A stretch of DNA of 64,000 nucleotides. Source: Actinopolyspora xinjiangensis. GTDB lineage: Bacteria; Actinomycetota; Actinomycetes; Mycobacteriales; Pseudonocardiaceae. The notes under the pieces were generated by a model. The model searched no databases. It was not told where the DNA came from and saw only the letters and a list, made by a program, of their open reading frames with translations. Shown here one piece after another: positions 1 to 39,367 of this stretch; within the stretch, counting starts at the first letter, position 1; each line of letters begins with the position of its first letter. The stretch is from NCBI RefSeq assembly GCF_900104475.1, contig NZ_FNJR01000007.1, positions 1-64,000 of the forward strand. The letters run 5' to 3'. A program made the translations under genes and the position numbers.

Positions 1-2
1 AG

Positions 3-149
3 CGGGTGCGGACCCGGCTGCTCAACCAGGTCGACGAGCGCCGCAACCCGCGCACGAACGCCACCGTCGAACAGCTGCTGGACCGCTACCTCGAATCGAT
101 CAGGAACGTCACTTCTCCTCCCTTCCTCACCGCTTCCTCGGTACTGTGA
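3..149 (+). pseudogene. Remnant of a tyrosine-type integrase (N-terminal part)
   Basis: The reading frame open from the window edge ends with LLNQVDERRNPRTNATVEQL and LLDRYLE before a short unrelated tail and a TGA at 147. This resembles the SAM-like DNA-binding N-terminus of phage and ICE tyrosine recombinases, where a 'T.TV..LLDRWLE' stretch precedes the core-binding helices. The rest of that domain and the whole catalytic domain (R..HxxR..Y) are missing, so this is a broken gene. It may mark an old integration site next to the conflict genes that follow. The gene start lies outside the window. Confidence 0.55.
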
Positions 150-410
150 CAACGCTCCCTGTCAGTCAGATGATCAGCGGGCGCGGTGCCGGGGCGTCGC
201 ACACTTCGACCGGACGTGGTGGCGAGTCATCGATCTTGCGGCCGGCTGGACCATCCGCGTGGTCACGGCCAGGTCCGACGAGTAGCAGACAGCTACGGGA
301 TCTTGGATCAGTCGAAACCGCATCCTGGCGCTCGAAGTTCTCAGAAAACTGACCTCTCGGCCATCGGGCGTTGCTACGCTCTCTGAATCCCGAATGGTTG
401 GAGGAGAGTT

Positions 411-785
411 ATGAGCGACCGCCCTGTCCACACGGTGGAAGTTCCGCTGAGTGACAACAACGGCCAGGCGGTTCGTGTCCAAATCCGGGAGGTGGACGAA
501 ACGCTCGTCCGGGCGGGCCGAGGAGGGCGCTCCATAGCACGGGCCGAACGGTCGTTCGGGCAGATGTTGGACACTATACGCCCCATGGCGGAGAGCTTTG
601 TGGGGCGATTCAGCGGGCTTGCGAACGCGCCGGACGAGATCACGCTGGAGTTCGGAGTTTCGTTGTCGGCCGAGGCTGACGTGGTCATTGCCAGCACCGC
701 GACGGAAGCCAATTTCTCCGTGAGTCTGACCTGGAACAGGAGTGTTTCGGGAGATGCCGACGAGAATACTGTGCAGGTGAGTTGA
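411..785 (+). CDS. CU044_2847-type protein with Trypsin-co-occurring domain 1 (Trypco1)
   Basis: A 124-residue protein with no signal peptide or membrane segment. The N-terminal half contains a short helix-rich stretch (about residues 45-70), followed by the typical C-terminal strands 'ITLEFGVSLSAEADVV' and 'ATEANFSVSLTW'. This pattern fits the small Trypco1 family, which in actinobacteria and cyanobacteria is encoded beside trypsin-like and STAND NTPase genes of NTP-dependent conflict systems. The biochemical role of the domain is not known; a partner or substrate of the neighbouring protease is an inference. The ATG at 411 follows a clear GGAGGAGAG ribosome site. The next gene starts 35 nt after the stop, so the two are probably one operon. 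Confidence 0.75.
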   Translation: MSDRPVHTVEVPLSDNNGQAVRVQIREVDETLVRAGRGGRSIARAERSFGQMLDTIRPMAESFVGRFSGLANAPDEITLEFGVSLSAEADVVIASTATEANFSVSLTWNRSVSGDADENTVQVS

Positions 786-820
786 GCCGCTCGAGGCTCG
801 CAACGGGGTAGGAGGTCTCA

Positions 821-3800
821 GTGACGGAGGCTCAGGAGCGGGATGGCGAGGAGGCGGAGCCGGTACTGGTTTCAGCGGTCGTCCGAGTCAAAGGGTCGGA
901 TGGTGCGATCGGCGGCGCAGGCTTCCTGATCGCTTCGGACCTGGTGCTGACCTGCGCCCATGTGGTCTCAGACGCGCTGGACCGGCCCCGGCAGGACACG
1001 GTTGAGGCAGGCGCCGAGGTCACGGTGGACGTGCCTCTGGCCAACAACGCCGACGGCGTGGACGGGAGCGACTACAGTGCCGAGGTCCGGCACTGGATAC
1101 CGATCAGACCGGACCAGACCGGCGACATCGCCGTGCTACGGTTGCGGAACCCGATTTCCGGCTCCCGGCCTCTCCCCATGATCGACCCGGAGTCCGGCGT
1201 GTGGGACCACAACACGCGCGCCGTGGGCTTCACCGACGACAACCCGGATGGAATCTGGCAAAGCGGCAGGTTTCTCGGTCCCACCGGTCAGGGCTGGATA
1301 CAGCTCTCGCGGACCGACAGTGAGGCCGTGGTCGTTCAGGGGGGCTTCAGTGGCAGCCCGGTCTGGGACAACGAGCTGGGTGCCGCCGTGGGCATGATGG
1401 TGGCGGCCCAGCCAGTGCGTGAGGTCCAGCAAGCGTTCGCCCTGCGAACGAGAACACTGCTGCGAGAAGTACCCGAACTCGCCCCATTCGTGAGCCCGGC
1501 AACGCCATTTCGGGGTCTGTCCGCTTTTCAGGAGGGCGACGCTGATGTCTTCTTCGGTCGGGACGACGACATCGAGCGAGTGATCACCACCTTGCGGGGC
1601 GATCATCCCACCGTGACGGTGTACGGGCCGTCGGGCTGCGGCAAGTCGTCGCTCGCGCTGGCCGGTGTGGTGCCGAGGATGAGGCAGGACGGCTACCGCA
1701 TTCTGCGGGTGGACGCCACACGCTTCGCCTCCCTGCGTGCCGCGCTCGCCACCGAACTGTTCGAGAGCGTGCGATCGGGGCAGTACGGCCCACCGCGCGT
1801 GCGGAGCGCCGACCGAGTAGACCAGTGGTTGAGCGAATTGGGACTCGCGGACGCCTTCCACCGGGTGACAGGGGAGCCCGCGGCACGGTTGCTGGTCGTA
1901 CTCGACCAGGCCGAAGCACTGCTGAACCATCCGGAACAGCGGCTCGCCGAGGCCATCGGACTCTTGTTCCCCAAACAGCAGCCAGCCGATCCGCAGGTCC
2001 TCGTCACCCTGCGCGCCGACTTCATGGACGCCGCACTGAGCGACGCGCACCTGGGACCCGCGCTGAAGCGCGGGGTGACACTTCCGCTCACACCCATGAC
2101 CCGGAACCAGCTGCACGCGGTGATCACCGAACCGATCAAGCACATTCCGACAGTCGACTACGACCCTGGGCTCGACCGGCGCATCCTGGACGACGCGCGC
2201 GGTGAACCGGGGATTCTGCCGCTGCTGAGCTTCGTCCTGACGCAGCTGTGGGAAAACAAGGCCTCGGGACGGTTGCGGGCTTCGACGTACGAGGCCATCG
2301 GCGGGGTATCAGGTGCGCTGCGGCGGCATGCGGAGGAGGTGTGGAAAGAGTGCGTTCCGCCTGAGGAGGAGGCCGAGGCACGACGGCTGTTGACTGGGCT
2401 GGTGCGGGTGCTGCCAGGCAGCGAGGCTCCGCTGCGGCGCGCACTGACACGCGAAGAGGCCGGGGAACGACGCTGGCGCCTGGCGCAGGCACTGGCCGGC
2501 CAAGAAAGACGCCTGCTGGTCCTGTACGGAGGCGATGGTCGGCCGGAGACCGCGGAGCTGACCCACGAAGCGCTGATCACGGCATGGCCCGACCTGGCAG
2601 AGCTGGTCCGGGCCAACGCCGACTTCCTCGCGGTGCGGGCGGAGGTGCAGCACGACCTGGAACGGTGGCGGAAGGCGGACCGCCCGGCCGACCTGCTGCC
2701 CAGATCCCTCCAACTCGCGGCCGTGGAAGCGAGGCTGCGGGACCGCGAGGCGGACCTGACCGAGGAGCAGCGGGACTTCCTCGCGCTGGCGCGTCGGCGC
2801 CAGCGGACGCGGCGGGTCCAGGTGCGTGCGGGCTGGGTCGCGGTGACCGTGGTCGTGGCGCTGATCGCCATGCTGGGCATATCCCTCGTGCAGGAGTCAC
2901 GGGTGAGCGCACAGCGAGAGGCGGAGGGAAAATCGCGGACGCTTGCCGTGCAATCGGACGAGCTGACGAGCAGCAACCCTGGGCAGGCCGCCCTGACCGC
3001 GCTCGCCGCATACGAGATCGCGCCAACACAGGAAGCGCGAAGCGCGCTGATGCGCCGGTACCTGGAACTCAAGGACGCGGCGTGGGTGCTGTCAGGAGCG
3101 GAAGGGCCGATCCAGGCATCGGACATGAGCGCCGACGGCCGGGTGACGCTGGCAACGAGCACGGGCGGCCGCGCGACCCTGTTCGTGCGCACGGCCAAGG
3201 GCAGGATCAGACAGGAGCAACTCCGCCTCGCCCACAATGTTCTGTCTCCAGTGGTCAGCCGGGACGGACGGCGGATCGCCTATCTGCGCGAGGCGGACGG
3301 GGTGGTGGTATGGCACGACGTGGCGCCCTCGGCAAAGAAGCTGGTGGGACCAGCGCACCTACTCCGCAGTGGCCAGATCAAGCACTATACGACCGGCACG
3401 CAGTGGGGCCAGCACAAGATCATGGACTTCTCCCCGGACGCCCGCCGATTGGTCGGGGTGTCGACCGAAGGGAACTGGGCGTCGTCGCAGCACCCGGTGC
3501 GGGTGTGGAACCTGGAGACAGGCGAGCTTCGGATGCTGCCCAAGCAGATCTCGGGCCTCCGTGAGGTGTGGTTCGGAGCAGACGAGAACACGTTGGTGGC
3601 CCGGCGCAGCACCGGACCGGAGACGCTGGAGGACTCGGTGGTGACAGTCGATATCACTGAGGGGACGCTGCGCACACTGGCGAAGGAAACCAATTCGTCG
3701 GCTACCGAAGTGTCGGGGGACGGCAGTGTAGTGATCGTCTGCCGGGACGGGCCCGGGGCGGACAACGAGCGAGTGGCGCGCTACGAGGCCATAGACGTGT

Positions 3801-5116
3801 CGGACGGACAGACACTGCGCCGCTACCAGCGGGGGAGCGACATTTCCTGCTCGGAAACCACCGTCGACGAAACGGGCGAACACTTCGCGGTCCCGCGCGT
3901 GGGAGTGGGAGAATGGGACCTCGTCGATACGCGCAATGACAAGAAGCCCCAGCCCTTCTTCGGTCCCGACGTCGATGACGGCTCCCATCTGCCTCTCCTG
4001 GGTACCCCGCACGAGCCCGTCATCGTCACCATGGACGAGGACACGGGGGTGACCGGGTCGGCGCTGCTGAGGTCTCACGGTGGCACCGCCTACAGCCCTC
4101 CAAAGCTGCTCGGCGACGGAAGCAGGATGGTGGTCCGCATGGGCGAAGACGGCAGAAGCCTGCGCGTCATGGAGACGGAAGGCGAGGAGCGGATCATTGC
4201 CGAGGTCGACAGCAATGCCGAAACGCCTCCGGACGCGAATCAGGAAATCCAGGTCAACCACGCCGAGACTCTGGTGGCGGATGTGGCGGACCGGAACCGG
4301 ATCACCGTCCGTGCACTGCCCTCGCTCCACAAGGTTGCCGAGTTCACCACGGCGGAACCGCCCGTCGGCGAAGGCGGGAAACCAGAGCTGCTGCGATTCC
4401 ACTTCCTCGGCGACGACCGGCTCGTGACGCTCTCCGGCACGCGCGTCGAGCACTGGGACGCCCGCGAAGGCCGCCGCCTGTCGCAGCCGATCGACCTGCG
4501 TGACCTGCAACTCACCACGCGGGATCAGCCGACCTACTTCGTGGGCAGCCACCCCGAGCCGGGGTATGTGGGGGTCACGGTGTCCCGCGAACCGGACGTC
4601 CATGCCGTCAACCTGCGAACAGGCAAAGAGAACAAGGAACTTCGCCTCCGCCTCGGCGATGACCTCAACGTGGCCGTGTTCCTGGAGGACCCGCGCTATG
4701 TGGCCGTGAAGACCACGGGCGGCATGGTGGAGCTGTGGTCGGTACAGTCCGGGCAGCCGGCAACGAGAGCGGTGGGCCCGCTCGGACCGCTGAACCCGAA
4801 CCGATGGGCGGCAGGCACCCTCGAGGGATCCGGATTCTTCCTGGCCAACAACAGTTCCGTACGCTTCCTGAAGGCGGACGACCCCGGGGACCGGGAGACG
4901 TACGAGTTCGAGGAAAAGCAGGGCTTCGTGGCGGGGACCAGGGACGGCAAGGCGCTGCTACGCACGCCCGTGTCCGGCGGAGGCCGGCTTGAACTGGTCC
5001 GCCTCGACCCCGCCCTGTGGAAGCGGCACCTCTGTGCCGTCCTCGGCCGTGACCTCACCAAGAACGAACGCGATGGGCTTCCCGACGGCCTGCCGACCAC
5101 TATCTGCCCTTCCTGA
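821..5116 (+). CDS. Trypsin-like protease - nSTAND1 ATPase - TM - WD40-like conflict protein
   Basis: A 1431-residue multidomain protein. Residues about 15-215 form a trypsin-like serine protease with a visible triad: H47 in LTCAHVV, D102 in GDIAVLRL, S177 in GGFSGSP. Residues about 228-660 form a STAND-type ATPase of the nSTAND1 group, entered by 'PFRGLSAFQEGDADVFFGR', with Walker A GPSGCGKSS (K275) and Walker B RLLVVLDQAEAL (D362). One membrane helix lies near 668-690 (VAVTVVVALIAMLGISLV). After a helical linker ('SNPGQAALTALAAYEIAPT') the last ~650 residues form a divergent beta-propeller, with WD-like units such as VRVWNLETGEL, VEHWDAREGR and VELWSVQSG. Such proteins are proposed to sense a stress or phage signal through the propeller, oligomerise through the ATPase and release the protease effector. 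The GTG start at 821 has GGAGG six bases upstream. Function in defence is inferred from family knowledge. Confidence 0.82.
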   Translation: MTEAQERDGEEAEPVLVSAVVRVKGSDGAIGGAGFLIASDLVLTCAHVVSDALDRPRQDTVEAGAEVTVDVPLANNADGVDGSDYSAEVRHWIPIRPDQTGDIAVLRLRNPISGSRPLPMIDPESGVWDHNTRAVGFTDDNPDGIWQSGRFLGPTGQGWIQLSRTDSEAVVVQGGFSGSPVWDNELGAAVGMMVAAQPVREVQQAFALRTRTLLREVPELAPFVSPATPFRGLSAFQEGDADVFFGRDDDIERVITTLRGDHPTVTVYGPSGCGKSSLALAGVVPRMRQDGYRILRVDATRFASLRAALATELFESVRSGQYGPPRVRSADRVDQWLSELGLADAFHRVTGEPAARLLVVLDQAEALLNHPEQRLAEAIGLLFPKQQPADPQVLVTLRADFMDAALSDAHLGPALKRGVTLPLTPMTRNQLHAVITEPIKHIPTVDYDPGLDRRILDDARGEPGILPLLSFVLTQLWENKASGRLRASTYEAIGGVSGALRRHAEEVWKECVPPEEEAEARRLLTGLVRVLPGSEAPLRRALTREEAGERRWRLAQALAGQERRLLVLYGGDGRPETAELTHEALITAWPDLAELVRANADFLAVRAEVQHDLERWRKADRPADLLPRSLQLAAVEARLRDREADLTEEQRDFLALARRRQRTRRVQVRAGWVAVTVVVALIAMLGISLVQESRVSAQREAEGKSRTLAVQSDELTSSNPGQAALTALAAYEIAPTQEARSALMRRYLELKDAAWVLSGAEGPIQASDMSADGRVTLATSTGGRATLFVRTAKGRIRQEQLRLAHNVLSPVVSRDGRRIAYLREADGVVVWHDVAPSAKKLVGPAHLLRSGQIKHYTTGTQWGQHKIMDFSPDARRLVGVSTEGNWASSQHPVRVWNLETGELRMLPKQISGLREVWFGADENTLVARRSTGPETLEDSVVTVDITEGTLRTLAKETNSSATEVSGDGSVVIVCRDGPGADNERVARYEAIDVSDGQTLRRYQRGSDISCSETTVDETGEHFAVPRVGVGEWDLVDTRNDKKPQPFFGPDVDDGSHLPLLGTPHEPVIVTMDEDTGVTGSALLRSHGGTAYSPPKLLGDGSRMVVRMGEDGRSLRVMETEGEERIIAEVDSNAETPPDANQEIQVNHAETLVADVADRNRITVRALPSLHKVAEFTTAEPPVGEGGKPELLRFHFLGDDRLVTLSGTRVEHWDAREGRRLSQPIDLRDLQLTTRDQPTYFVGSHPEPGYVGVTVSREPDVHAVNLRTGKENKELRLRLGDDLNVAVFLEDPRYVAVKTTGGMVELWSVQSGQPATRAVGPLGPLNPNRWAAGTLEGSGFFLANNSSVRFLKADDPGDRETYEFEEKQGFVAGTRDGKALLRTPVSGGGRLELVRLDPALWKRHLCAVLGRDLTKNERDGLPDGLPTTICPS

Positions 5117-5988
5117 AGCCAGAGAGGCAAGTCCAGTCCAGCCGGACACTCGCGGACCGACAGCACCGGACCGTGCTTCCAAGCGGCGCGACCTGCCCGG
5201 CACACGGGCGAGAAGCCCCCTTCCCGGGTCCGGCCAGGTCCGGGTGCGGCCAGGGAACAGGCTCGTGCGACTGACAGAACCGGGGAACGAACCGGCCGAA
5301 GTGGACTCGATGCTCGATGCGGTCCCGACATCCTCGCCTGCGAACTCATCGTGTGCGACACCGACGACCAGCACCTCACCACACCCCACCACCATGCCCC
5401 CGTGAACGAGCCGGCCCCCATGAACAAGCCGGGAAAAGGCGACAACCCGAGGAAGGGGTGGCGTCCCCGTACGTACGGCTGTGCCGCGAGCGGACCCGGG
5501 AGTCGGGAGCGCGTTGAGTCTCGGCCGACTGGTCACCTCGTCCCGAACTCAGCCCTCGTGACTGAAGCAGAACAGTTCCGAGACGGTGAGCACCGGGGAT
5601 GTGCCGCTCTCGCCGTATGACCATGCGAACACTGTCCTTCGGGGCCACTCGTGACTGGTTCCGGACGCGTTCCGGCCACACCCCGCCGGACAGCGGTCAG
5701 TGGGTCTGTTACAGCTAATCCACATTCGTTATGAAAAGCCGCTTTTTGGTGTTGTGGCTTTTCATCTGTTCGTAGTAGAGCATCGTGCTGGTCATCGTGC
5801 GACGATTTTTCACGGGTTCGCGCTCGCGTCACAATGCTCAAGGCCACGCTAAGACCGTGTCCGCGCGTAATACGCGTGCTTCGTGACGCGACGCCGACCC
5901 GTGGCGCCGACGTTTCCGGACGTCCCGCATTATCCGACACTCGACGGCGTCCGGAGTTTCCACAGGCAACGATACACAGTTTGAGAAC
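5117..5988. other. Gene-poor stretch of about 870 bp
   Basis: I see no convincing gene here. The open frames have poor codon structure and no recognisable domain or ribosome site. The region from about 5700 to 5830 is clearly lower in GC than its surroundings and contains a hairpin; the part after 5830 probably carries the promoter of the secreted-protein gene. A short perfect palindrome (CGCGTA, one A, TACGCG) lies at 5864-5876. Confidence 0.5.
5733..5763. terminator. Hairpin in an AT-rich patch (terminator or operator)
   Basis: An 8-bp perfect inverted repeat, GAAAAGCC and GGCTTTTC, encloses a 15-nt T/G-rich loop. The patch is unusually AT-rich for this genome. It could terminate transcripts from either side or be a regulator site; it sits about 225 bp upstream of the next gene. 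Confidence 0.35.
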
Positions 5989-6801
5989 GTGGAGAGCCAT
6001 ATCTTAACGACGACGAAGTTTCGCAAGCCGGTGATGGCAGTCGCTCCTCTGGCCCTGGCACTCGCGGTGGGAGGGATGACGCCGACACCCACCGTGGCGG
6101 CACCGCAGGAGGCCCAGCGGCCTGCCGCCACGGCTGCTCCCGATACGAATGGAACCTGCTCACCCCAGGGCCCCTCGGCGGGTTCGACGACCGAGATGAC
6201 CCTGGTCGACGGCCATGAGACGCGTGAGTTGACGAGCGCGGCCTTCGAGGCCGTGAAAAACGGCGAGATCTCCGTCCAGACTCCGCGGAACGCGCTTTCC
6301 CGGGGCCAAGCCAAGGTTTACGCAGTGGACGCTGAGAACAGCGATTCCACTTCGGTGACGATTCCTGTCGGCGGGGAATACAGCCTGATCAGTAACCTCA
6401 CGGTTCTCTTCGACACGAGCGGCGACATCGTCCAGTACAGTGAGACGCTCGTCAGTGAGAACGAAGTCGGAAACTTCAACATTACGAGTTACACGGACGG
6501 CGTTCTCGTGAACAGCGAGGACACGGATCTGCCGTTCATGACGGACGCCGAGCTGCGGCAGCAGGCCAACAACGGCGCCGATAGTTCCGACCCCATGGCC
6601 GCGATGGGGGTCGGAAGCACGGCTGCCTGCGTCGCGGCGGTACTCGGCGTGAGCGGCGCCACCGGGTATCTCATCGTGAGTGCCTGCACGGGTGCGTGCT
6701 CGACTCCTGGAGTGGGTACGGCGGTGTGCGTCGCTTGCATCGGCGCCTACGCAACCGTCGGCAGCGCGTCGGTGACCGCCGTCGCCAGCTGCTTCGGTTA
6801 A
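5989..6801 (+). CDS. Secreted precursor with Cys-rich hydrophobic C-terminus (halocin C8-like)
   Basis: A 270-residue protein. The N-terminus has a basic start and a hydrophobic core (MAVAPLALALAVGGM) ending near 'TVAAPQEA', a likely secretion signal. The middle (about 60-200) is hydrophilic and acidic. The last ~60 residues are Gly/Ala/Val-rich and hydrophobic with six cysteines (C214, C233, C237, C247, C250, C268), e.g. 'SACTGACSTPG' and 'VCVACIGAYATVG'. This layout recalls the halocin C8-like bacteriocin domain, where a long precursor is cut to release a stable Cys-rich peptide and the precursor's N-terminal part acts as immunity protein. The match is by pattern only. The GTG at 5989 has a weak ribosome site, so the true start may differ. 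A small membrane-protein gene follows at once. Confidence 0.5.
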   Translation: MESHILTTTKFRKPVMAVAPLALALAVGGMTPTPTVAAPQEAQRPAATAAPDTNGTCSPQGPSAGSTTEMTLVDGHETRELTSAAFEAVKNGEISVQTPRNALSRGQAKVYAVDAENSDSTSVTIPVGGEYSLISNLTVLFDTSGDIVQYSETLVSENEVGNFNITSYTDGVLVNSEDTDLPFMTDAELRQQANNGADSSDPMAAMGVGSTAACVAAVLGVSGATGYLIVSACTGACSTPGVGTAVCVACIGAYATVGSASVTAVASCFG

Positions 6802-7621: not shown

Positions 7622-8665
7622 TCAGTGCTCCGCCACCCCGAGTGCGGCCGAACCGCCCCCGCGAGGTGATCGGACAACGGTGAACACCAGAACGACCACG
7701 AGGACGAGCAGTGCCGCCTGCGGCAGCACCAGGAAAAGCGCGGACACACCGTCCGGCAGGCCGAATGCCACGAGCGGCGCCACGTACGCCAGCAGGGACA
7801 GCACACCGATCACGGCCAGCGCGACCGACCAGGAGTTCGTGATCAGCCTCGGACGGCGCCCTCGCACGACCAGGGTCGCCACGGCGGCACCCAGCATTCC
7901 CCAGATGAGGGGCCCGGCAACCACCACCGTCGGGTCGATTCGGCCCACCACTACGAACAGGAGACAGCCGAGAACCGCTACCGGCAGCGCGAGCGACCAC
8001 GGCCTCCGTGACGGGGCGGGGGCGTCACGATGGAACCCGAGGAGCACGCAGGTGACGGGCAGCCAAACTCCGAGCTCGATCAGTACAGCGGTGACGAACA
8101 TGGTCGTGCCCTCGGTGACCGTGGAGATCACCGAGGTTAACGAAGGCAGCGAGGCCACGACCGCGCAGCACCGACCGGAACGACGTTTCCCCAGCACGAG
8201 CAACAGGTACGCGGGCACCCACACCAGGTTCGGCAGCAGGCTCAGGGCGATGTGGCCGCCGGTCGGGCGCACCAGCACGCTCGGCCCGCCGAACGCCGCG
8301 CCGCCCCGAAGCTGAACGTAGGCCAGACCGGCCAGGGAGGCCAGTGCCAGCACAGCGCGCACGAGCAGCCCGAGCAGTGCGACGGTGCGAACGGTGTCAC
8401 CCCACGCACGAGCCGCACGCGGGGCACCGACTCCGCCGAAGCGGGTACGAACCGCGAGCCCCGCCACGGCGACGACCTCCCGCCAGTCGGGCCAGCCGTA
8501 CTCACCACGCAGATCCTCGTCGTCCTGCTCGTCGTCGCCGTACGCACTCTGCCTCGCTGCGTCGTCGAGCAGGAATACGGCCACCATCTCCTCCTCGCGG
8601 TCGGAGCGGTACCAGGCGGGCAGCAGCCGCAGCAGGTGTCGGTAGCGCTGTTCGAGCCTGGTCAT
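7622..8665 (-). CDS. Polytopic membrane protein paired with a PadR regulator
   Basis: A 347-residue protein. The first ~90 residues are cytoplasmic ('MTRLEQRYRHLLRLLPAWYR', then acidic), followed by eight or nine hydrophobic segments, for example 'TVALLGLLVRAVLALASLAG' and 'ALLVLVVVLVFTVV'. The N-terminal 'LRLLPAWYR..REEEM' motif recurs in actinobacterial membrane proteins encoded next to PadR regulators; their function is unknown. The ATG at 8665 overlaps the PadR stop as ATGA, so translation is coupled. It is probably repressed with padR from the TATATA-rich site upstream. An integral part of an exporter or an envelope-stress protein are both possible. Confidence 0.65.
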   Translation of the reverse strand: MTRLEQRYRHLLRLLPAWYRSDREEEMVAVFLLDDAARQSAYGDDEQDDEDLRGEYGWPDWREVVAVAGLAVRTRFGGVGAPRAARAWGDTVRTVALLGLLVRAVLALASLAGLAYVQLRGGAAFGGPSVLVRPTGGHIALSLLPNLVWVPAYLLLVLGKRRSGRCCAVVASLPSLTSVISTVTEGTTMFVTAVLIELGVWLPVTCVLLGFHRDAPAPSRRPWSLALPVAVLGCLLFVVVGRIDPTVVVAGPLIWGMLGAAVATLVVRGRRPRLITNSWSVALAVIGVLSLLAYVAPLVAFGLPDGVSALFLVLPQAALLVLVVVLVFTVVRSPRGGGSAALGVAEH

Positions 8666-8997
8666 GCCGTACCACCCGACCCGGGAAGCAGCCCGCGGAC
8701 CCGCAACCGGTCGGTGGCCGCCCGCACCGCCTCCGAGCGGCGAGCGGTCTCGCCGGCCAGTGTGGTCAGTCCTTCGTCCGTGATGCGGTAGTAGCGCCGC
8801 AACCGTCCGTTGTGGACCTGCTCGCTGTCGAGTTCCACGAGTCCGTCGGCGCACAACCGGTCGAGCACCCCGTACAGGGTTCCCACGCGTAACACCACCC
8901 GTTGTCGGGAGAGTTCGCCCACCGCCCGCACGATCCCGTAGCCGTGCAAGGCTCCCTCTGCCAGCACGGTCAGCACCAGGAAAGTCTGCTCGGACAT
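8662..8997 (-). CDS. PadR-family transcriptional regulator
   Basis: A 111-residue PadR-type winged-helix protein. The start 'MSEQTFLVLTVLAEGALHGY' and 'VGTLYGVLDRLCADGLVE' (recognition helix and wing) are typical, followed by 'RRYYRITDEG' and a short C-terminal dimerisation helix. PadR proteins usually repress their own operon and a membrane or transport gene, and respond to small ligands or cell stress. I chose the ATG at 8997 because the domain begins right there; an upstream extension would be read through the operator. The downstream membrane-protein gene overlaps by 4 nt. Confidence 0.85.
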   Translation of the reverse strand: MSEQTFLVLTVLAEGALHGYGIVRAVGELSRQRVVLRVGTLYGVLDRLCADGLVELDSEQVHNGRLRRYYRITDEGLTTLAGETARRSEAVRAATDRLRVRGLLPGSGGTA

Positions 8998-9020
8998 GGC
9001 TCGGCGTGACACGCGTACAG

Positions 9021-9045
9021 TATATATCGTTAACCGGTATATATG
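9021..9045. promoter_or_regulatory. TATATA-rich imperfect palindrome, probable PadR operator
   Basis: TATATATC and GGTATATAT flank a GTTAAC core, giving an imperfect dyad 24 bp upstream of the padR start. PadR regulators often bind AT-rich dyads overlapping their own promoter. The AT-rich arms may also contain the -10 box. Confidence 0.55.
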
Positions 9046-9263
9046 TCTCGTCGAGTTTTTTGAATCCACCGGACGCGTGAGAGAACATCACACGCCCACG
9101 GGAAGCGGTGCGCCGCTGACCAGGTTCTTCGCGAGTCGTCCCGTTCCGGAAGCCCGTTCACAGGCCGCTCCACCCGGACGACCACGAAACCGGGAACGCG
9201 CCCTCCCGATACGGATAGACTCGTGCTACACGCACCCGCCCGCACTGCTTCGAGGACCACGGC

Positions 9264-9764
9264 ATGAGCACGAGACACACGGTGATCGCCTCGCCGGTCG
9301 GTGACCTGACCGCCGTGGCCGAGGACGACCACTTGGTCGGGCTCTACTTCACCGGACGGGAGGACGGGAGCCTCGCCGTCACGCTCGGACCGAGGATCGA
9401 CGAGGATTTCCCGGACACGAGGCTCCAGCTGGACGAGTACTTCGCGGGCGAGCGAACCCGGTTCGACCTTCCGCTGGCCCCGCACGGCGACGAGTTCGAG
9501 CAGCGGGTCTGGGAGCTGATCGCCGAGATCGACTACGGCGAGACGCGCAGCTACGGCGAACTCGCCCGTCGGCTGGGCGGCCCCGGGCTGTCCAGGGCCG
9601 TGGGCACCGCGACCGGCCGCAACCCGATATCGGTGATCGTGCCCTGCCACCGCGTGATCGGCGCCGACGGCAGCCTGACCGGCTTCGGCGGAGGGCTGGA
9701 CCGCAAGCGCTTCCTGCTTCGGCTGGAGGAGCCATCCGCCGAAGTGGCTGGCAGGCTGTTCTGA
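9264..9764 (+). CDS. ogt: Methylated-DNA--protein-cysteine methyltransferase
   Basis: A 166-residue suicide DNA-repair protein that takes the methyl group from O6-methylguanine (and O4-methylthymine) onto its own cysteine. The acceptor is C128 in the motif VPCHRVIG; 'YGETRSYGELARRLGGPG' and 'SRAVGTATGRNP' form the DNA-binding helix-turn-helix and the asparagine hinge, and 'GFGGGLDRKRFLLRLE' closes the active site. The length fits the Ogt type without an AdaA domain. The gene stands alone on the plus strand; a TAGACT at 9216-9221 may be its -10 box. The ATG at 9264 is the first before the conserved N-terminal domain 'SPVGDLTAVAEDD'. Confidence 0.92.
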   Translation: MSTRHTVIASPVGDLTAVAEDDHLVGLYFTGREDGSLAVTLGPRIDEDFPDTRLQLDEYFAGERTRFDLPLAPHGDEFEQRVWELIAEIDYGETRSYGELARRLGGPGLSRAVGTATGRNPISVIVPCHRVIGADGSLTGFGGGLDRKRFLLRLEEPSAEVAGRLF

Positions 9765-9783
9765 GCGAAGCACTCCGCTGGCC

Positions 9784-10275
9784 TCATCCCTCGGAGGCCG
9801 CGGGTTCCGAAAACGTCCGCCGCACGTGCCGGACCGGGTTCAGCGCCAGTGCCGCCTCCGGGCCGAACCAGCCGTACCGATCGTGCTCCTCGGGGACAGC
9901 ACCACCGGCGCGTCCGGGTCAGTCTCCACCGCGTGGAACGTCACGGTGTGGAACCGGATGCGGCGCCTCTCGGTGTCCTCGTTCGTGTGGCACGACGACC
10001 GCGCCGATCTCGACGCGCAACCCGGTCTCCTCCCGTACCTCCCGACGTGCCGCCACCGCCGGGATCTCCCCCGCTTCCACGATTCCGCCGCGGATGTCCC
10101 ACCGCCCGCCGAGACAACGCCCCGGCCGCCGTAGCAGCGGCCAACCATCTTCCCGCAGCAGCGCGTGGGCGATCCACCGCTGTTCCCACGCCCCCTCCGG
10201 CCCGTGACCGGCCCCGCCCGTCGCCGAGCCCGGCGTGTTCGGGCGTGGGGAACGAGCGCTCCCACCACTGCTCAT
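9784..10275 (-). pseudogene. NUDIX hydrolase broken by two compensating frameshifts
   Basis: Three pieces add up to one NUDIX protein. The first frame gives 'WEQRWIAHALLRED' and the NUDIX box 'GGIVEAGEIPAVAARREVRE' followed by ETGL. Near 9990 the reading jumps one frame to 'TNEDTERRRIRFHTVTFHAV', and near 9893 it returns to the first frame for 'EEHDRYGWFGPEAALAL' and a TGA at 9784. The two indels are opposite in sign and about 100 bp apart; the unshifted frame meets a stop at 9919. This indicates recent decay or two sequencing errors. The intact protein would have been about 165 residues and would hydrolyse a nucleoside diphosphate derivative. The start at 10275 is uncertain. Confidence 0.75.
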
Positions 10276-10288
10276 CCAGTGAGCTTGC

Positions 10289-11035
10289 TCATCCGGTGAG
10301 CCGTACCGAACTGACATCGGCGACCTCGCGGTAGCCGAGCCGCTCGTAGAGCCCGATCGCCCGCGCGTTGTCCACGGTCACTCCGAGCGCGACCTCGCCG
10401 AACTCCGCCAGCAGCGCGCGGGTCATCGCGGCTGTCAGGGCACTTCCCAGACCACGACCGCCGTATGCGGGATCGACGGTGATCTTGACCAGGAAACCGA
10501 CGCCGTTGACGCTGCGGTCGGCTCCGCACGCGACGAGCCGCTCTCCCTCGCGGATGCCGAACCACCGGCGGATTCCCGTGGCGCGGGGTTCGGCCGAGGT
10601 GGCCGGGTGCCCGTCCCGCAGCAACCGCTCGATCCGCTCGCTCTCCCCGCTCGGTAGCACCTCCACATCGGACTCACCGCGCCGCTTTCGGGGAGCTCGC
10701 TCGGTGGCGAGGAAGTACCAGTCCTCCTCCCGGTGCACCGGCAGCCGCTCGAGCTCGGCGTCGGGCAGCAGCGGGAGCCGCACCGGGGCCCCGGGACCGA
10801 GCGGTTCCTCCGCCCGGAGCCACTCGAGCAGGTCGATGGCCGCGTGCGCCCGACCGCGCAGCGAGACCGAACCGGGCTGCCACGGAACACCCGTGAACCA
10901 GGCGACGGCCTCGTCCGTCGCGTAACCGACCACGTCTTCGGTGACGGTCATGCGGGTGTAGGCGTCCGCGCCCGCGGCCGTGAACAGCTCGGGGACTCCG
11001 ACGAGGCGGCGCGGGCTCAGGCAGGACACTGTCAT
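10289..11035 (-). CDS. GNAT-family N-acetyltransferase
   Basis: A 248-residue protein with a poorly conserved N-terminal half and a C-terminal GNAT fold. The acetyl-CoA motif A is visible in 'VKITVDPAYGGRGLGSALTA', followed by 'GVTVDNARAIGLYERLGYRE', the usual end of the fold. Substrate unknown. The ATG at 11035 was chosen over the longer frame because the upstream part belongs to the response-regulator gene read in another frame. It follows the response regulator by 61 nt on the same strand but has no obvious link to it. Confidence 0.8.
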   Translation of the reverse strand: MTVSCLSPRRLVGVPELFTAAGADAYTRMTVTEDVVGYATDEAVAWFTGVPWQPGSVSLRGRAHAAIDLLEWLRAEEPLGPGAPVRLPLLPDAELERLPVHREEDWYFLATERAPRKRRGESDVEVLPSGESERIERLLRDGHPATSAEPRATGIRRWFGIREGERLVACGADRSVNGVGFLVKITVDPAYGGRGLGSALTAAMTRALLAEFGEVALGVTVDNARAIGLYERLGYREVADVSSVRLTG

Positions 11036-11096
11036 GACGACGATCCTGGCAGAGCGGATCGGTTCCCGCGTGACCACGTCCGGAAACGCCCGCTGA

Positions 11097-11795
11097 TCAC
11101 GAGAAGCCGCGCCCGCCCGCCCACCGGTAGCGGTGTTCGGGTCGGCCCGCCGAACCGTACCGCAGGTGCAGCGTGATTCCGCCGGTGTTGGCGAAGTGGT
11201 CGAGGTAGCGGCGGGCGCTGACCCGGGACAGCCCCGCGCTGTTGGCGACCTCGGAGGCGGAGAGGTCGGTCCCCGCAGAGCGCAGCGTGTCGAGCACCAG
11301 CCGGGCGGTGACCGTCGAGAGCCCCTTGGGGAGCTCTTCGGGCACGGTGTGGGGTTCGGCTGGACGCAGCATGCCGTAGACCCTGTCCACATCGGCCTGC
11401 TCCGCCTCGTCGACCGCGTCCAGCTCGCTCTTGGCCTCGGCATAGCCGTTCAACCGCTGCCGCAGTTCGCGGAACGGAAAGGGTTTGAGCAGGTAGTGCA
11501 CCGCGCCACCCTGCATGGCCGCCCTGACCGTCTCCACGTCCCGCACCGCTGTGATCACCAGCACGTCGAGTGGCCGGGCGTTGCCCCGCAACCGCTGCAG
11601 CACCCGCACCCCGGACTCGTCCGGCAGGTACAGGTCCAGCAGCACCAGATCCGGGAGCAGCCGTTCGCTCAGCGCCAGCGCTTCCCGCGCGGTGTGGGCC
11701 ACCCCGACGGCCTCGAAACCGTCCATGCTCCCGACGAGCTTGCGGTGGTTGTCCGCCACCCGCACGTCGTCGTCGACCACGAGCACTCGGATCAT
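11097..11795 (-). CDS. CitB/DcuR-type response regulator
   Basis: A 232-residue regulator. The N-terminal receiver domain begins 'MIRVLVVDDDVRVADNH', with the phosphoacceptor aspartate in 'PDLVLLDLYLPDESG' (D54), the T in 'VLVITA' and K in 'LLKPFPF'. The C-terminal half has a helix-turn-helix ('LSASEVANSAGLSRVSARRY') as in CitB/DpiA/DctR regulators of carboxylate uptake. The ATG at 11795 overlaps the kinase stop as ATGA and has GTGGAG upstream, so it is preferred over the GTG at 11807. Together with the kinase it very likely controls the divergent tctCBA genes. Confidence 0.9.
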   Translation of the reverse strand: MIRVLVVDDDVRVADNHRKLVGSMDGFEAVGVAHTAREALALSERLLPDLVLLDLYLPDESGVRVLQRLRGNARPLDVLVITAVRDVETVRAAMQGGAVHYLLKPFPFRELRQRLNGYAEAKSELDAVDEAEQADVDRVYGMLRPAEPHTVPEELPKGLSTVTARLVLDTLRSAGTDLSASEVANSAGLSRVSARRYLDHFANTGGITLHLRYGSAGRPEHRYRWAGGRGFS

Positions 11796-13492
11796 CGGCG
11801 ACTCCACGAGCTGGGCTGTCGATCGGGGCCGGGCAACCCGGCCGGTTCCGCTTCCTCGATGGGCTCTGCCACCGTCGGCAGCAGCGCGGTGAACACCGCA
11901 CCTCCGTCATTGTCGGCACGGACCCAGCCGCCCCGGTTCCGGCAGGTCTGCCGTACCAGCGCCAGCCCCAGGCCGCAGGGACCTCCCTGCTGGGCCACCT
12001 TGGTCGTGAAACCGGCCCGGAACACCTCGTCGACCAGCTCGGGCGCTATCCCGACTCCGGAGTCGCCGACCTCGACACGTGTGGCGGCGGTTCCGTTCTC
12101 GGTGACCGAGCACAGCGAGACCCGCACCCTGCCGGTGCCCGCTTCCAGCGACTCCAGCGCGTTGTCGATGAGATTGCCGACCACCAGGATCAGATCGTCC
12201 CTGGCGGTGGTGGACGGCAGCGCGTCGAGGTCGGTGTCGGTGCCGAGCACGAACTCGGCACCCCGCTCGGTGGCCGCGGCGGACTTGGCCAGCAGCAGGG
12301 CGGCGACGGCGGCGTCGCGCACCCGCGTGGTGAGGTCCTCGGTGAACCGCCCGTGCGAGGCGCTGAGCTCGTCGACGAAGGTGCGTGCCTGCTCGTACTC
12401 ACCGAGTTCCAGCAGACCGGCGATGGTGTGTATCCGGTTGGAGAACTCGTGCGCCTGGGCGCGCAGGGCGTCGGTGGTGGTACGCGCGCCGTCGAGTTCC
12501 TGGGCCAGCTGGTCGAGCTGGGTGCGGTCGCGCAGGGTCACCACCGAACCTCCCCCGATGCCGTCCGGTCGGATCGGCATCCGGTTCAGGGCCAGCACGC
12601 GCCCCCGCCGCAGCACGATCTGGTCGGTGCCGTCGGCCTGCCCCGCCAGCACCTCGTGCAGCCGTTCCGGCAGTTCGAGCTCGTCGAGGCGTCTCCCCTC
12701 CGCGTCCGGGGGCAGGCCGAGCAACCGGTGGGCCTCGTCGTTGACCAGGGTGATCCTTTCCGACGGGTCGAAGGCCACAACTCCCTCCTTGAGCGCGTGC
12801 AGCATGGCCACCCGGTGCTCGACCAACCTGCCGATCTCGTCGGCGGCCATGCCGAAGGTCTGCCTGCGCATCCGCCGGAAGACGAGGTAGGTGCCGAGCG
12901 AACCCAGCACCACCAGGGTCAGCACGGTTCCCAGCAGTTCGGGAAGGCTCTGGGCCACTTCCTGGCTGACCGTGGAGACGGGCACCCCGACGGAGACCAC
13001 GCCGATAACCTTCCCCGCCTCGTCGAGCACGGGCACCTTGGCGCGCATGGATCGCCCGGTGGTTCCGGTCTGGACGCCGGTCCAGACGTCGCCCGCCAGC
13101 GCCGGGGCGGCGTCGGTGGACAGTCGGTGACCGATTCGCTCGGGGTCGGGGTGTGAGTAGCGGATCTGCCGCCGGTTCGCGACGACGATGAACGAGGCAC
13201 CGGTGGCGCGGCGTATCCGCTCGGCCAGCGGCGCGATGGTGTTCTCCGGGTGCGGGTCGTCGAAGGCCTCGCGCACCGTGCGCAGCGTGGCCACCGACTC
13301 TGCGATCGCCAGCACGCGCTGCGCGTACTGCTCGTCGAGCTCGGCACGGGTGTTCCGCCACCAGAACAGTCCACTGGCGACGAGCGCGAGCACGACGAGC
13401 ACCAGCTGCAGCGCGAAGAACTGCCCCGCCAGCGGCCAACGGCGCGCCGGGCCTCGGCTCCGCGTGGTGTTGCCCTCGGCGATGACGTCCAT
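11792..13492 (-). CDS. CitA/DcuS-type sensor histidine kinase
   Basis: A 566-residue membrane kinase. Membrane helices at about 21-44 and 185-205 enclose a periplasmic PAS-like sensor (about 50-180) with 'GASFIVVANRRQIRYSHPDP', typical of citrate/C4-dicarboxylate sensors. A cytoplasmic PAS domain (about 225-325) contains 'EGVVAFDPSERITLVNDEAH'. The phosphorylated histidine is H348 in 'RAQAHEFSNRIHTIAGLLEL'. The ATPase domain has 'GNLIDNALESLE', 'VGDSGVGIAPE' and 'GPCGLGLALV'. The start ATG at 13492 has a GGGAGGG site. The partner regulator overlaps at the 3' end, and a tricarboxylate transporter is divergent, so the ligand is probably a tricarboxylate or related acid. Confidence 0.92.
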   Translation of the reverse strand: MDVIAEGNTTRSRGPARRWPLAGQFFALQLVLVVLALVASGLFWWRNTRAELDEQYAQRVLAIAESVATLRTVREAFDDPHPENTIAPLAERIRRATGASFIVVANRRQIRYSHPDPERIGHRLSTDAAPALAGDVWTGVQTGTTGRSMRAKVPVLDEAGKVIGVVSVGVPVSTVSQEVAQSLPELLGTVLTLVVLGSLGTYLVFRRMRRQTFGMAADEIGRLVEHRVAMLHALKEGVVAFDPSERITLVNDEAHRLLGLPPDAEGRRLDELELPERLHEVLAGQADGTDQIVLRRGRVLALNRMPIRPDGIGGGSVVTLRDRTQLDQLAQELDGARTTTDALRAQAHEFSNRIHTIAGLLELGEYEQARTFVDELSASHGRFTEDLTTRVRDAAVAALLLAKSAAATERGAEFVLGTDTDLDALPSTTARDDLILVVGNLIDNALESLEAGTGRVRVSLCSVTENGTAATRVEVGDSGVGIAPELVDEVFRAGFTTKVAQQGGPCGLGLALVRQTCRNRGGWVRADNDGGAVFTALLPTVAEPIEEAEPAGLPGPDRQPSSWSRR

Positions 13493-13790
13493 CCCTCCCA
13501 CGGTCGATGACCGTCCGACCGTAACGGCAGCGCAACGTCCCCGGAAACCACAGTGCCGATGTGCGCTGCGACGACCCCGCGACCGCCGTGACCACAACGA
13601 CCAGTACCGCGTTTATGAACACCACATTCCCCACGGACGGGGGAGGCACACACCCTGTGATCCACGACTCGCGACGTGCTGTTCACCTCACGGCGTCACG
13701 GCGAACACCTCAACCGGTTCCGCCGCCCGAACCGGGGAGCAGTGGGTTGGGAATCGTGTCGAAGAATCCGGACTCTCGCAGGGAAGGACC
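13493..13790. promoter_or_regulatory. Divergent control region between the kinase and tctC
   Basis: About 300 bp without a gene separates two divergent operons that belong to one uptake system. It must carry both promoters and is the likely binding region of the response regulator. I cannot name a specific operator. Confidence 0.4.
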
Positions 13791-39291: not shown

Positions 39292-39367
39292 GTGGGTGTA
39301 GCTCAGGCGGTAGAGCACTGGGTTGTGGTCCCAGGAGTCGCGGGTTCGAATCCCGTCACTCACCCCA
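39292..39367 (+). tRNA. tRNA-His (anticodon GTG)
   Basis: Full cloverleaf: acceptor GTGGGTG/CACTCAC, D-arm with AGCTCAGGCGGTAGAGC, anticodon stem CTGGG/CCCAG around TTGTGGT, T-arm GCGGGTTCGAATCCCGT. The CCA end is encoded. A G at 39291 and C at the discriminator position fit the extra G-1 of tRNA-His. A TAGGAT at 39249-39254 may be its -10 box. Confidence 0.97.

Follow-up and report, generated by a model that had tools for sequence, protein, structure and literature searches.

A mobile actinobacterial gene pair proposed to encode an outside-in receptor protease

Here we present a two-gene module from Actinopolyspora xinjiangensis, found in a stretch of 64,000 nucleotides that we call the window, in which a small Trypco1 gene precedes a large gene fusing a trypsin-like protease, an nSTAND1 NTPase, a single transmembrane helix and a propeller. 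The reading we prefer, and hold with somewhat more confidence than doubt, is that this mobile module codes for a receptor protease of the outside-in type, resembling Apaf-1. The large protein (protein 2) would cross the membrane once, with the protease and the STAND NTPase in the cytosol and a disulfide-stabilised propeller outside. An external ligand, for which a phage part, a rival's protein, a mating partner or envelope damage are candidates, would bind the propeller and free the STAND domain for ATP binding and oligomerisation in the plane of the membrane; this oligomerisation would gather the protease domains, which would then cleave cytosolic targets and lead to cell death, arrest or signalling. 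The Trypco1 protein, small, soluble and cytosolic, would be the dedicated partner of this engine, whether as brake, cofactor or substrate. What is new here is the build of the protein, with a propeller that its sequence places probably outside the cell; an earlier sequence-only reading of this DNA had mentioned the membrane helix, not its implication of an external propeller. The features of the locus, in window coordinates, are these:

401..406, + strand: putative Shine-Dalgarno-like stretch of the Trypco1 gene, read in the sequence
411..785, + strand: Trypco1 gene, 124 aa, without a transmembrane helix (PF19493, NCBIfam CU044_2847); Trypco1 domain at 456-740
810..815, + strand: putative Shine-Dalgarno-like stretch (aggagg) of the receptor-protease gene, read in the sequence
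821..5116, + strand: trypsin-nSTAND1-TM-propeller gene, 1431 aa, GTG start
914..1396, + strand: trypsin-like protease domain, residues 32-192 (PF13365; H47, D102, S177)
1505..2689, + strand: nSTAND1 NTPase, residues 229-623 (PF20703; K275, D362)
2834..2890, + strand: single transmembrane helix, about residues 672-690 (hydropathy 2.64; 7 K/R before, 4 after)
2891..3070, + strand: three juxtamembrane helices, about residues 691-750 (AlphaFold2 model)
3071..5113, + strand: propeller ectodomain, probably extracytoplasmic, with a short helix and a Cys-bearing tail at its end (model, Foldseek)
3740..3742, + strand: Cys974, near-invariant conserved column, Cys in 69/76 rows
3848..3850, + strand: Cys1010, conserved column, Cys in 69/76 rows
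5033..5035, + strand: Cys1405, first member of the C-terminal pair, conserved column, Cys in 76/76 rows
5105..5107, + strand: Cys1429, second member of the C-terminal pair, conserved column, Cys in 75/76 rows

The cytosolic engine of protein 2 is recognised by profiles. Residues 32-192 match Trypsin_2 (PF13365; E 1.4e-16, 62 bits against a cut-off of 27.6) and contain a His-Asp-Ser triad, which together predict a trypsin-like peptidase, while residues 229-623 belong to nSTAND1 by profile match (PF20703; E 6.7e-84, 283.1 bits, cut-off 27.1), P-loop and Walker B. The earlier statement that all catalytic residues are kept is borne out: H47, D102, S177, K275 and D362 are present in protein 2 and do not vary across an alignment of 25 rows made up of divergent homologues and the window protein, and among closer relatives (76 rows, that is, 75 and the window) D102, S177, K275 and D362 are each found in 76/76 and H47 in 75/76. 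The sole row lacking H47, L253, is poorly aligned at its N-terminus. A true trypsin is expected to have Asp six residues before the catalytic Ser; the window protein has Val there and the position varies among relatives, so an Arg specificity was dropped and we claim no cleavage rule. A PDB sequence search with protein 2 returned nothing at 0.01.

The two genes are a real two-gene cassette. Both ORFs are found where the earlier reading placed them, on one strand and 35 nt apart, each with a Shine-Dalgarno-like stretch in front, in agreement with the earlier placement of the Trypco1 gene ahead of the large gene in one operon; the contig starts at window base 1, and the sequence further upstream is cut off. 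The sequence-only reading had let its case stand or fall with the identity of the small protein, which is indeed Trypco1 by profile search (PF19493, E 1.3e-26, 93.5 bits, cut-off 24.6; NCBIfam CU044_2847, E 1.4e-22). It had also proposed to check whether the genes stay together elsewhere, and this check, too, turned out in its favour. In other actinomycetes the pairing holds, with Trypco1 directly upstream in 12/12 plasmid relatives whose coverage of protein 2 is 80% or more and in 67/79 two-domain ORFs from named genomes (11/79 are without an adjacent Trypco1), the loci concerned (L177-L256) being the best 80 of 164 relatives and, since the query combined the window with five plasmid relatives, favouring close relatives that share this layout. 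It is not universal: in a family-level sample Trypco1 adjoins 11/30 trypsin-nSTAND1 ORFs (5 upstream, 6 downstream) and is absent beside 19/30, a homologue count that is a lower bound because two candidates were scored per genome. Seen from the other side, at 42/73 Trypco1 places the trypsin gene follows directly, in the same orientation. For fetched DNA each ORF was read from its earliest possible start, and third-position GC, without a gene caller, served to filter neighbours; four of the 79 ORFs, cut or broken (L223, L230, L235, L247), were left out, and the other 75 make up the 76 rows together with the window. Clustering of 601 neighbouring ORFs revealed no third recurring neighbour in loci L177-L256, the largest cluster being scattered over 7 loci. 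The neighbouring gene at 5989-6801 was rejected as a component, having no family match and no visible pairing, and a promoter and terminator scan of 1-6000 came out near chance (promoter-like 1 against 0.3 expected; terminator-like 4 against 2.8) and was not used.

The orientation of protein 2 was judged from hydropathy, charge and cysteine statistics. The one membrane helix claimed before is confirmed as a strong hydrophobic segment at about residues 672-690, and lying as it does between the NTPase and the propeller, it would put the two on opposite sides of the membrane. All 76 rows have the helix; K/R residues are more numerous before it than after it in 74/76 and equal in number in 2 (window included). 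The number of cysteines beyond the helix is even in 71/76 rows and odd in 5/76, versus even in 29/76 on the cytosolic side, and four alignment columns hold 289 of the 309 cysteines beyond the helix in these rows. These proteins are kin, and to lessen that effect we counted representatives below 50% ectodomain identity (even in 23/24, versus 7/24 on the cytosolic side) and below 40% (12/13). By these statistics the protein would have the marks of a membrane receptor, with a single helix, an N-in/C-out orientation and an oxidised ectodomain; the propeller probably faces the outside of the cell, and the conserved cysteines would form disulfides there.

Avs sensing of phage proteins takes place inside the cell, and protein 2 might be read likewise as a cytosolic defence protein, its helix not crossing the membrane and its propeller detecting, from within, a phage protein synthesised during infection. 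Such a reading could draw on the sensing of phage proteins by Avs STAND proteins through their C-terminal part (PMC10907252) and on AVAST type 1, in which protease plus STAND is already known to act against phages (PMC12799240); we regard it as very improbable, since the transmembrane helix would split the NTPase and the propeller between two sides and the charge bias and the cysteine pattern agree with that split.

The propeller itself was described as divergent, and the description is apt: profiles see it only faintly (Beta-prop_THOC3 at 1.9e-5, far below its cut-off, and PD40 at 0.086), while the AlphaFold2 model of the ectodomain is a confident propeller (pLDDT 93.6 overall, pTM 0.92) that matches WD40 propellers in Foldseek, with Apaf-1 chains among the PDB matches (3sfz, E 1.2e-17). 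The ectodomain is also the fastest-diverging part of the module, with a median dN/dS in close pairs of 0.50, versus 0.29 for the cytosolic part and 0.16 for Trypco1. Between L186/L207 and L192/L193 the cytosolic dS is 0.18-0.29 and the ectodomain dS 0.98-1.13, the rise falling just past the transmembrane helix. Ectodomain and engine trees disagree for L203, L209 and L182/L215, while the trypsin and NTPase trees keep the engine groups. To judge from these sequence comparisons, ectodomains have been swapped among proteins that otherwise keep their protease and NTPase together; for the exchange involving four proteins, the tree test taken by itself leaves one clade unrejected (p 0.12), and the groups in the tree tests were named only once the trees had been seen. 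The sensor is delimited to residues 691-1431, with natural exchanges on a nearly constant engine (L186/L207 versus L192/L193), and with the catalytic and P-loop residues also defined, the question of outside sensing becomes testable.

The same anatomy would serve a membrane receptor outside immunity, in which an external signal such as cell-wall state, a nutrient, development or a mating cue is relayed by regulated proteolysis. Among actinobacterial receptor kinases there are some whose propellers are external, the nine annotated plasmid regions hold no named phage-defence neighbour and PADLOC has no convincing match for the pair, all of which count in favour of such a receptor. We nevertheless think it unlikely. 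The pair is patchy, mobile and sometimes broken, the exchange of sensors and the raised dN/dS suit conflict better than a housekeeping signal, and Trypco1 and nSTAND1 are known from predicted conflict systems (PMC7159879, PMC8195603).

The distribution of the pair is patchy and plasmid-borne. At 1e-20, protein 2 (P0002) finds matches in 130 plasmid records, and 12 of these cover at least 80% of it, four plasmids (H5-H8) being near-copies. In 9 other genomes of Actinopolyspora there is no match. Besides one RelE/Phd toxin-antitoxin pair nearby, the neighbours in the 9 annotated plasmid regions are hypothetical, regulatory, metabolic, transfer or transposase genes. Copies are sometimes broken (L230, L235, L243, L244). 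Carriage by phages was rejected, protein 2 having only three partial matches in a phage collection, in the NTPase region at about 30%, and Trypco1 none at 0.01; a tRNA as integration site was likewise set aside, the sole one in the window lying far off, at 39292.

Such mobility invites the thought that the module protects its own element by surface exclusion or addiction, the propeller detecting a mating pair or a rival element, or Trypco1 acting as antidote to the protease. The plasmid records just given, the tandem duplication of the pair on NZ_CP109179.1 and the small conserved partner gene upstream would all fit; the window copy, on the other hand, seems by reading only to be flanked by ordinary chromosomal genes, and we consider self-protection distinctly unlikely. 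For its strict antidote form there is a further obstacle: 5 of the 25 searched genomes whose trypsin-nSTAND1 ORF is without an adjacent Trypco1 have no Trypco1 anywhere, with the triad residues present, and Trypco1 is therefore not an obligate antidote.

Trypco1 could instead be a substrate, from which the protease frees an active fragment as the Avs1b and HamA proteases do with their partner pro-nuclease. Its place directly upstream of a protease fusion, as in published nuclease-protease pairs (PMC12799240), speaks for this, as does a conserved Arg/Gly-rich stretch at residues 28-47 or so that is mostly unstructured in a low-confidence model. Against it, Trypco1 is the most conserved part of the module (mean identity 0.754, versus 0.583 for trypsin), and Pfam finds Trypco1 as the sole match in 67 members, with no other effector or nuclease family, so that we think a substrate role not very likely. 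The fold model from these 67 sequences is poor (pLDDT 50.9); a strand-strand-helix-strand-strand order of secondary structure can be proposed from it. No hydrophobic segment was found in the protein, and its PDB sequence search gave matches at chance level only. Coevolution of Trypco1 with trypsin was tried and dropped: in a distance-matrix test the partial r was 0.00 with trypsin and 0.45 with the NTPase, and given this null we do not claim direct Trypco1-trypsin binding. Trypco2 as a substitute partner was also rejected, being present in 9/121 genomes, with a profile from those 9 flagging no ORF in L140-L166.

Apaf-1 itself is a cytosolic protein to which its protease is recruited. The outside-in receptor protease that we favour shares with it a STAND switch and a C-terminal propeller sensor and differs in having the protease within its own chain and the propeller probably across the membrane; by this analogy an animal-cell death switch appears recast as a surface sensor with an ATP-switched protease inside.

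The earlier link to conflict systems stands for the parts, Trypco1 being named in PMC7159879 (Kaur et al. 2020), among the Trypco1/trypsin pairs of VMAP ternary conflict systems, and nSTAND1 in PMC8195603. In the VMAP systems, too, the neighbour of a Trypco1 gene is a trypsin-like protease that is linked with an NTPase switch (PMC7159879), whereas here nSTAND1 is fused to the protease, with one transmembrane helix and a probably external propeller. MoxR, vWA and VMAP are absent from protein 2 and four scanned nearby ORFs of the window, which starts at the contig start, and are unnamed in the nine plasmid regions, and we do not assign the pair to these systems. AVAST type 1 (Avs1) and nuclease-protease systems likewise join a trypsin-like protease to a STAND or other sensor-switch with a partner directly upstream, but that partner is an MBL pro-nuclease (Tuck et al. 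2025, PMC12799240), where ours is Trypco1, which sets the pair apart from AVAST type 1; the words 'membrane' and 'WD40' are both absent from the main text of PMC12799240. The immune or suicide role for which the earlier reading named the pair the strongest candidate in the window gains no convincing PADLOC match: Avs1b reaches only E 0.047, and the best match, RT-Protease_XI at E 2e-4, covers the protease region only. The EACC1 membrane-associated system has two genes, an N-terminal protease and some STAND NTPase fusions, but its helix is in the small protein and its protease is caspase-like (PMC7159879, section 33); here the Trypco1 protein is soluble, without a transmembrane helix, and protein 2 is trypsin-like, without a caspase match, so the pair falls outside EACC1.

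More broadly, we put forward, at a little under even confidence, an actinobacterial class of transmembrane, outward-facing NLR/Apaf-1-like nSTAND1-TM-propeller receptors, in which propellers recombine while the cytosolic engine and Trypco1 stay fixed. As far as is known, NLR-like antiphage proteins of bacteria detect invaders intracellularly. If the class is real, it would mean a bacterial surface immunity with swappable sensors that detect attack before entry, and a STAND receptor with an external sensor would be a bacterial counterpart of an apoptosome-like switch that has a surface receptor fused to it. The orientation proposed for protein 2 is also backed by a more distant set of 40 proteins (window included), of which 37 have a helix by threshold, 35 of these 37 with the K/R bias (1 equal, 1 opposite), and the cysteine number beyond the helix is even in 33/34 proteins with more than 500 residues there. 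One protein without the helix, L097, has 16 cysteines in the corresponding region and is missing the C-terminal pair. Other actinobacterial nSTAND1-TM proteins, whose N-terminal domain is not trypsin-like, share the helix after the NTPase, the K/R bias and often the terminal cysteine pair. In 40 such loci, chosen by hand with most of them standing high in the list and two too short to count, the helix is found in 38/38, the K/R bias in 37/38 and an even cysteine number beyond the helix in 32/38 (odd in 6/38), versus 16/38 on the cytosolic side, so the point may extend well past this pair.

The first base of the window is the start of contig C8, in a genome of 5.04 Mb and 33 contigs, and the two genes of the pair follow with 35 nt between them:

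411-785, + strand: Trypco1 gene, 124 aa (PF19493, 1.3e-26; NCBIfam CU044_2847, 1.4e-22), the sole Trypco1 copy of the A. xinjiangensis genome
821-5116, + strand: trypsin-nSTAND1-TM-propeller gene, 1431 aa (Trypsin_2, 32-192; nSTAND1, 229-623, 6.7e-84)

Read from its sequence, the larger protein (protein 2) appears to have the anatomy of a receptor, with an external sensor, a membrane helix, a cytosolic STAND switch and a protease. The sequence-only reading had placed a Trypco1-domain gene ahead of it, as the PF19493 match and the short spacing bear out, and had listed five catalytic residues (H47, D102, S177, K275 and D362), all of which are present and invariant in 25 divergent aligned sequences, window included. 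In a closer alignment of 76 rows, made up of the window and 75 of the 79 two-domain ORFs of sample (c) below (four cut or broken ORFs being omitted), H47 is kept in 75 and each of the other four in all 76. The one membrane helix is confirmed as a single strong helix about 30-65 residues past the NTPase, and the propeller matches were weak in the profile search. PADLOC gave no convincing defence model for the pair, the top match being RT-Protease_XI (2e-4), over the protease; Avs1b matched with an E-value of 0.047.

Sample (a), order-level and anchored on Trypco1, covered 298 genomes, 58 of which have Trypco1. Counting the window, a trypsin domain lies directly downstream on the same strand at 42 of 73 Trypco1 places, and 7 of these 42 genes are trypsin-nSTAND1. 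A same-strand trypsin lies more than 1 kb away at 17 places, four of which have a trypsin-nSTAND1 gene and then Trypco1 (close by in the homologue loci L071, L074 and L075, about 550 nt on in L042); two places have a trypsin on the opposite strand, and 12, some near contig ends, have none within the locus DNA. Sample (b), family-level and anchored on protein 2 (297 genomes, 1e-60, two candidates scored per genome), gave matches in at least 25 genomes, the window's included; with the window there are 30 trypsin-nSTAND1 ORFs, and Trypco1 is upstream of 5, downstream of 6 and not nearby in 19. Sample (c) held the closest kin, namely plasmid records and 80 loci from named genomes (the best 80 of 164), most of them from Streptomyces, with identity in the best segment reaching 74%. 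Trypco1 directly precedes the gene in all 12 plasmid records whose match spans at least 80% of protein 2 (four of them, H5-H8, are near-copies; the top relative is 64% identical over the full length), and the annotation of eight of these records was examined as well. It also directly precedes 67 of the 79 two-domain ORFs (<450 nt, same strand). One ORF (L211) has Trypco1 on the opposite strand only, and 11 have none in the locus DNA, L232 having almost no upstream DNA and L229 less than 1 kb. On the counts of the three samples, the adjacency of the two genes is real and strong in the subfamily of protein 2 (12/12 and 67/79) but not universal (11/30), and gene order can flip. Trypco1 follows the trypsin-nSTAND1 gene, at its 3' end, in L071, L074, L075, L146, L148, L149, L161, L164 and L165.

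The TM helix is found in all 76 rows (lowest mean hydropathy 1.81), and lysine and arginine are more frequent in the 20 residues before it than in the 20 after it in 74 rows and equal in 2 (mean 7.9 vs 3.5), an excess that points to an N-in, C-out topology. The cysteine pattern is a signal independent of helix and charge. Past the helix the count is even in 71 of 76 rows and exactly four in 67, against an even count in 29 of 76 for the cytosolic part; four columns hold 289 of the 309 post-TM cysteines (69, 69, 76 and 75 of 76 rows), and three columns on the cytosolic side hold 174 of 303. These four, C974, C1010, C1405 and C1429, are among few near-invariant sites in a region of 29% mean column identity. 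With one representative per ectodomain group, the post-TM count is even in 23/24 for groups below 50% identity (7/24 cytosolic) and in 12/13 for groups below 40% (5/13 cytosolic). In a distant set of 40 proteins that includes the window, the helix threshold is reached by 37, with the charge bias in 35 of these, equality in 1 and the opposite in 1; the post-TM count is even in 33 of the 34 with more than 500 residues beyond the helix, and 32 of 34 trypsin-type proteins carry a terminal C-x(15-32)-C pair. Below the threshold are L165 (just under, four cysteines), L166 (short C-terminal part) and L097, whose C-terminal part has 16 cysteines and lacks the terminal pair. Among 40 nSTAND1 loci without trypsin (L257-L296), 38 proteins were long enough and showed the helix in 38, the charge bias in 37 and an even cysteine count in 32 past the helix vs 16 before it; the topology signals thus do not look special to the trypsin type, and this set is unusable as a negative control because it has no helix-free member. 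Many of its nSTAND1-TM proteins have C-termini resembling C....(I/L)T..EW..Y.P...Y.PPC, and the terminal cysteine pair of that motif seems to mark the nSTAND1-TM class. Taken together, the helix, charge and cysteine signals favour, short of proof, an oxidised and extracytoplasmic propeller.

An AlphaFold2 model of residues 691-1431, from 76 sequences (mean pLDDT 93.6, pTM 0.92), shows three membrane-proximal helices, short helices at the C-terminus and fifty strands, a number that would suit 12-14 blades, probably split between two propellers. The best 50 Foldseek rows are all propeller-bearing proteins, including 2ymu, Pwp2/Utp proteins and Apaf-1 (3sfz, E 1.2e-17). The predicted fold class is clearly a propeller, but with no close structural relative, since TM-scores are low (at most 0.45 among the matches listed).

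Among 65 proteins with Trypco1, propeller identity is below NTPase identity in 2061 of 2080 pairs, and mean identity to the window, over 46 comparisons with NTPase identity >0.45, is 0.754 for Trypco1, 0.614 for the NTPase, 0.583 for trypsin and 0.46 for the propeller. Median dN/dS in 53 close pairs (cytosolic dS <0.5) is 0.29 for the cytosolic part, 0.50 for the ectodomain and 0.16 for Trypco1, with dS about equal either side of the membrane (median ratio 1.07). Six pairs are outliers against this background, with ectodomain dS >0.7 and >1.6 times cytosolic dS; among 676 pairs examined there is no reverse outlier, with a cytosolic jump. Four of the six, L186 and L207 against L192 and L193, are one event (cytosolic dS 0.18-0.29, Trypco1 dS 0.05-0.13, ectodomain dS 0.98-1.13), in which dS rises from 60-codon windows starting about 10 to 70 residues past the helix; the rise is absent within L186-L207 and within L192-L193. 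A tree test does not reject these four as one clade (p 0.12), and the evidence for this exchange is the synonymous jump, not the tree test. The remaining outlier pairs are L203-L234 and L203-L196. In 26-protein trees, the ectodomain of L203 falls with the engine neighbours of L209 and vice versa, the engine being the cytosolic trypsin and NTPase. Constraining their engine groups to stay together on the ectodomain tree was rejected (p 1e-4 and far below), and the engine tree in turn rejects their ectodomain groups (p 1e-7 and far below). Also rejected on the ectodomain tree is the group that the window forms by engine with L177, L178, L218, L182 and L215. These p-values are descriptive, because the groups were defined once the trees were in view and the tree searches were quick. 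Separate trypsin and NTPase trees keep all four engine groups (support 2 to 100).

At 1e-20, none of the 9 other Actinopolyspora genomes matches protein 2; its family-sample homologues are at most 37% identical over full length, while Streptomyces ones reach 74%, and the pair was thus likely acquired horizontally. Its plasmid neighbours differ between most records and include IS110 and IS5 transposases, and clustering of L177-L256 gave no recurring third gene, the largest neighbour cluster lying in 7 scattered loci. The receptor-protease gene is non-intact in 4 of 80 loci (L230, L235, L243, L244), all with Trypco1 upstream. A Streptomyces plasmid (NZ_CP109179.1; L174, 5546-15162) carries two Trypco1 and trypsin-like protease pairs in tandem. 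At 5989-6801 the window encodes a protein of 270 aa whose N-terminus, by reading, is signal-like and whose C-terminus, again by reading, is rich in cysteine and small residues; a family search gave none, and partial relatives lie on one Arthrobacter and one Pseudalkalibacillus plasmid. ORFs deeper in the window, few of them searched, resemble ordinary chromosomal genes by reading.

In the mechanism proposed, the external propeller would sense, and the signal would pass by the membrane helix to the cytosolic STAND switch and on to the protease. STAND proteins are kept off and assemble upon ligand binding. The account of Apaf-1 in PMC7159879 has it held off and then assembling in this way. Trypsin-like domains fused to sensor systems are described as cleaving the product of the directly upstream gene, shown for Hachiman and AVAST (PMC12799240). 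In this pair the upstream position belongs to Trypco1, and Pfam detects no effector family in it. Its conservation, higher than that of any other part of the module, would suit a regulator or cofactor, and it may be a substrate of the protease. Distance-matrix tests gave no tie between Trypco1 and the trypsin domain (partial r 0.00) and a partial r of 0.45 with the NTPase, perhaps because the longer NTPase gives better distances or because Trypco1 acts there. As an obligate antidote Trypco1 would not serve, since five searched genomes without it (G353, G378, G263, G607, G608) keep the triad residues in 7/7 trypsin-nSTAND1 ORFs. A conflict role for the pair is favoured over housekeeping, by inference, because the ectodomain is rapid and exchangeable and plasmid carriage is patchy.

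In the open library searched, Trypco1 and nSTAND1 each occur in 2 papers. Trypco1 was named beside the trypsins of VMAP systems by Kaur et al. 2020 (PMC7159879) and nSTAND1 by Kaur et al. 2021 (PMC8195603), and the idea of a STAND sensor that faces outward has some precedent in a DGR paper (PMC10907252), which predicts that certain STAND systems have periplasmic sensors. In the open-licence PMC literature searched, we found nothing on the trypsin-nSTAND1-TM-propeller/Trypco1 pair, nor on its membrane orientation or ectodomain exchange; the parts are already known, and the combination, the orientation evidence and the sensor exchange are new.

Trypco1 lies elsewhere in the genome for 9 of the 11 sample (c) genomes without an adjacent copy, and since the gene of L232 stands at the very start of its contig, the Trypco1 of that genome may be its lost neighbour, carried by a different contig. 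It also lies elsewhere in 11 of 14 sample (b) genomes without a nearby copy, a fifteenth (G427) having an additional, paired copy; the comparison rate is 58/298 order-wide, from genomes of unlike size and relatedness, and the distant Trypco1 copies may work with other trypsins. In L151 (8524-9192) and L157 (7969-8649), from genomes without Trypco1, an ORF that reads as sigma-factor-like stands at the start of the trypsin-nSTAND1 gene. Trypco1 without a detected trypsin adjoins glycosyltransferases in L039 and L040 (about 8600-13900; L039 scanned, L040 with the same ORF layout) and directly adjoins a CHAT-SIR2-TIR protein in L100 (441-3391). Twelve loci (L079, 9813-17827; L080-L087, L089, L091, L092) have Trypco1 and a trypsin on the same strand, separated by a near-constant distance of about 7 kb; in L079, the one scanned, the intervening genes include one for a vWA protein and one for a PknG-like kinase with rubredoxin, kinase and TPR domains, which looks like a separate Trypco1-trypsin-kinase-vWA operon. 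Among 14 control genomes, Methanosarcina acetivorans gave the sole Trypco1 match and one of two Trypco2 matches, so both also occur in an archaeon.
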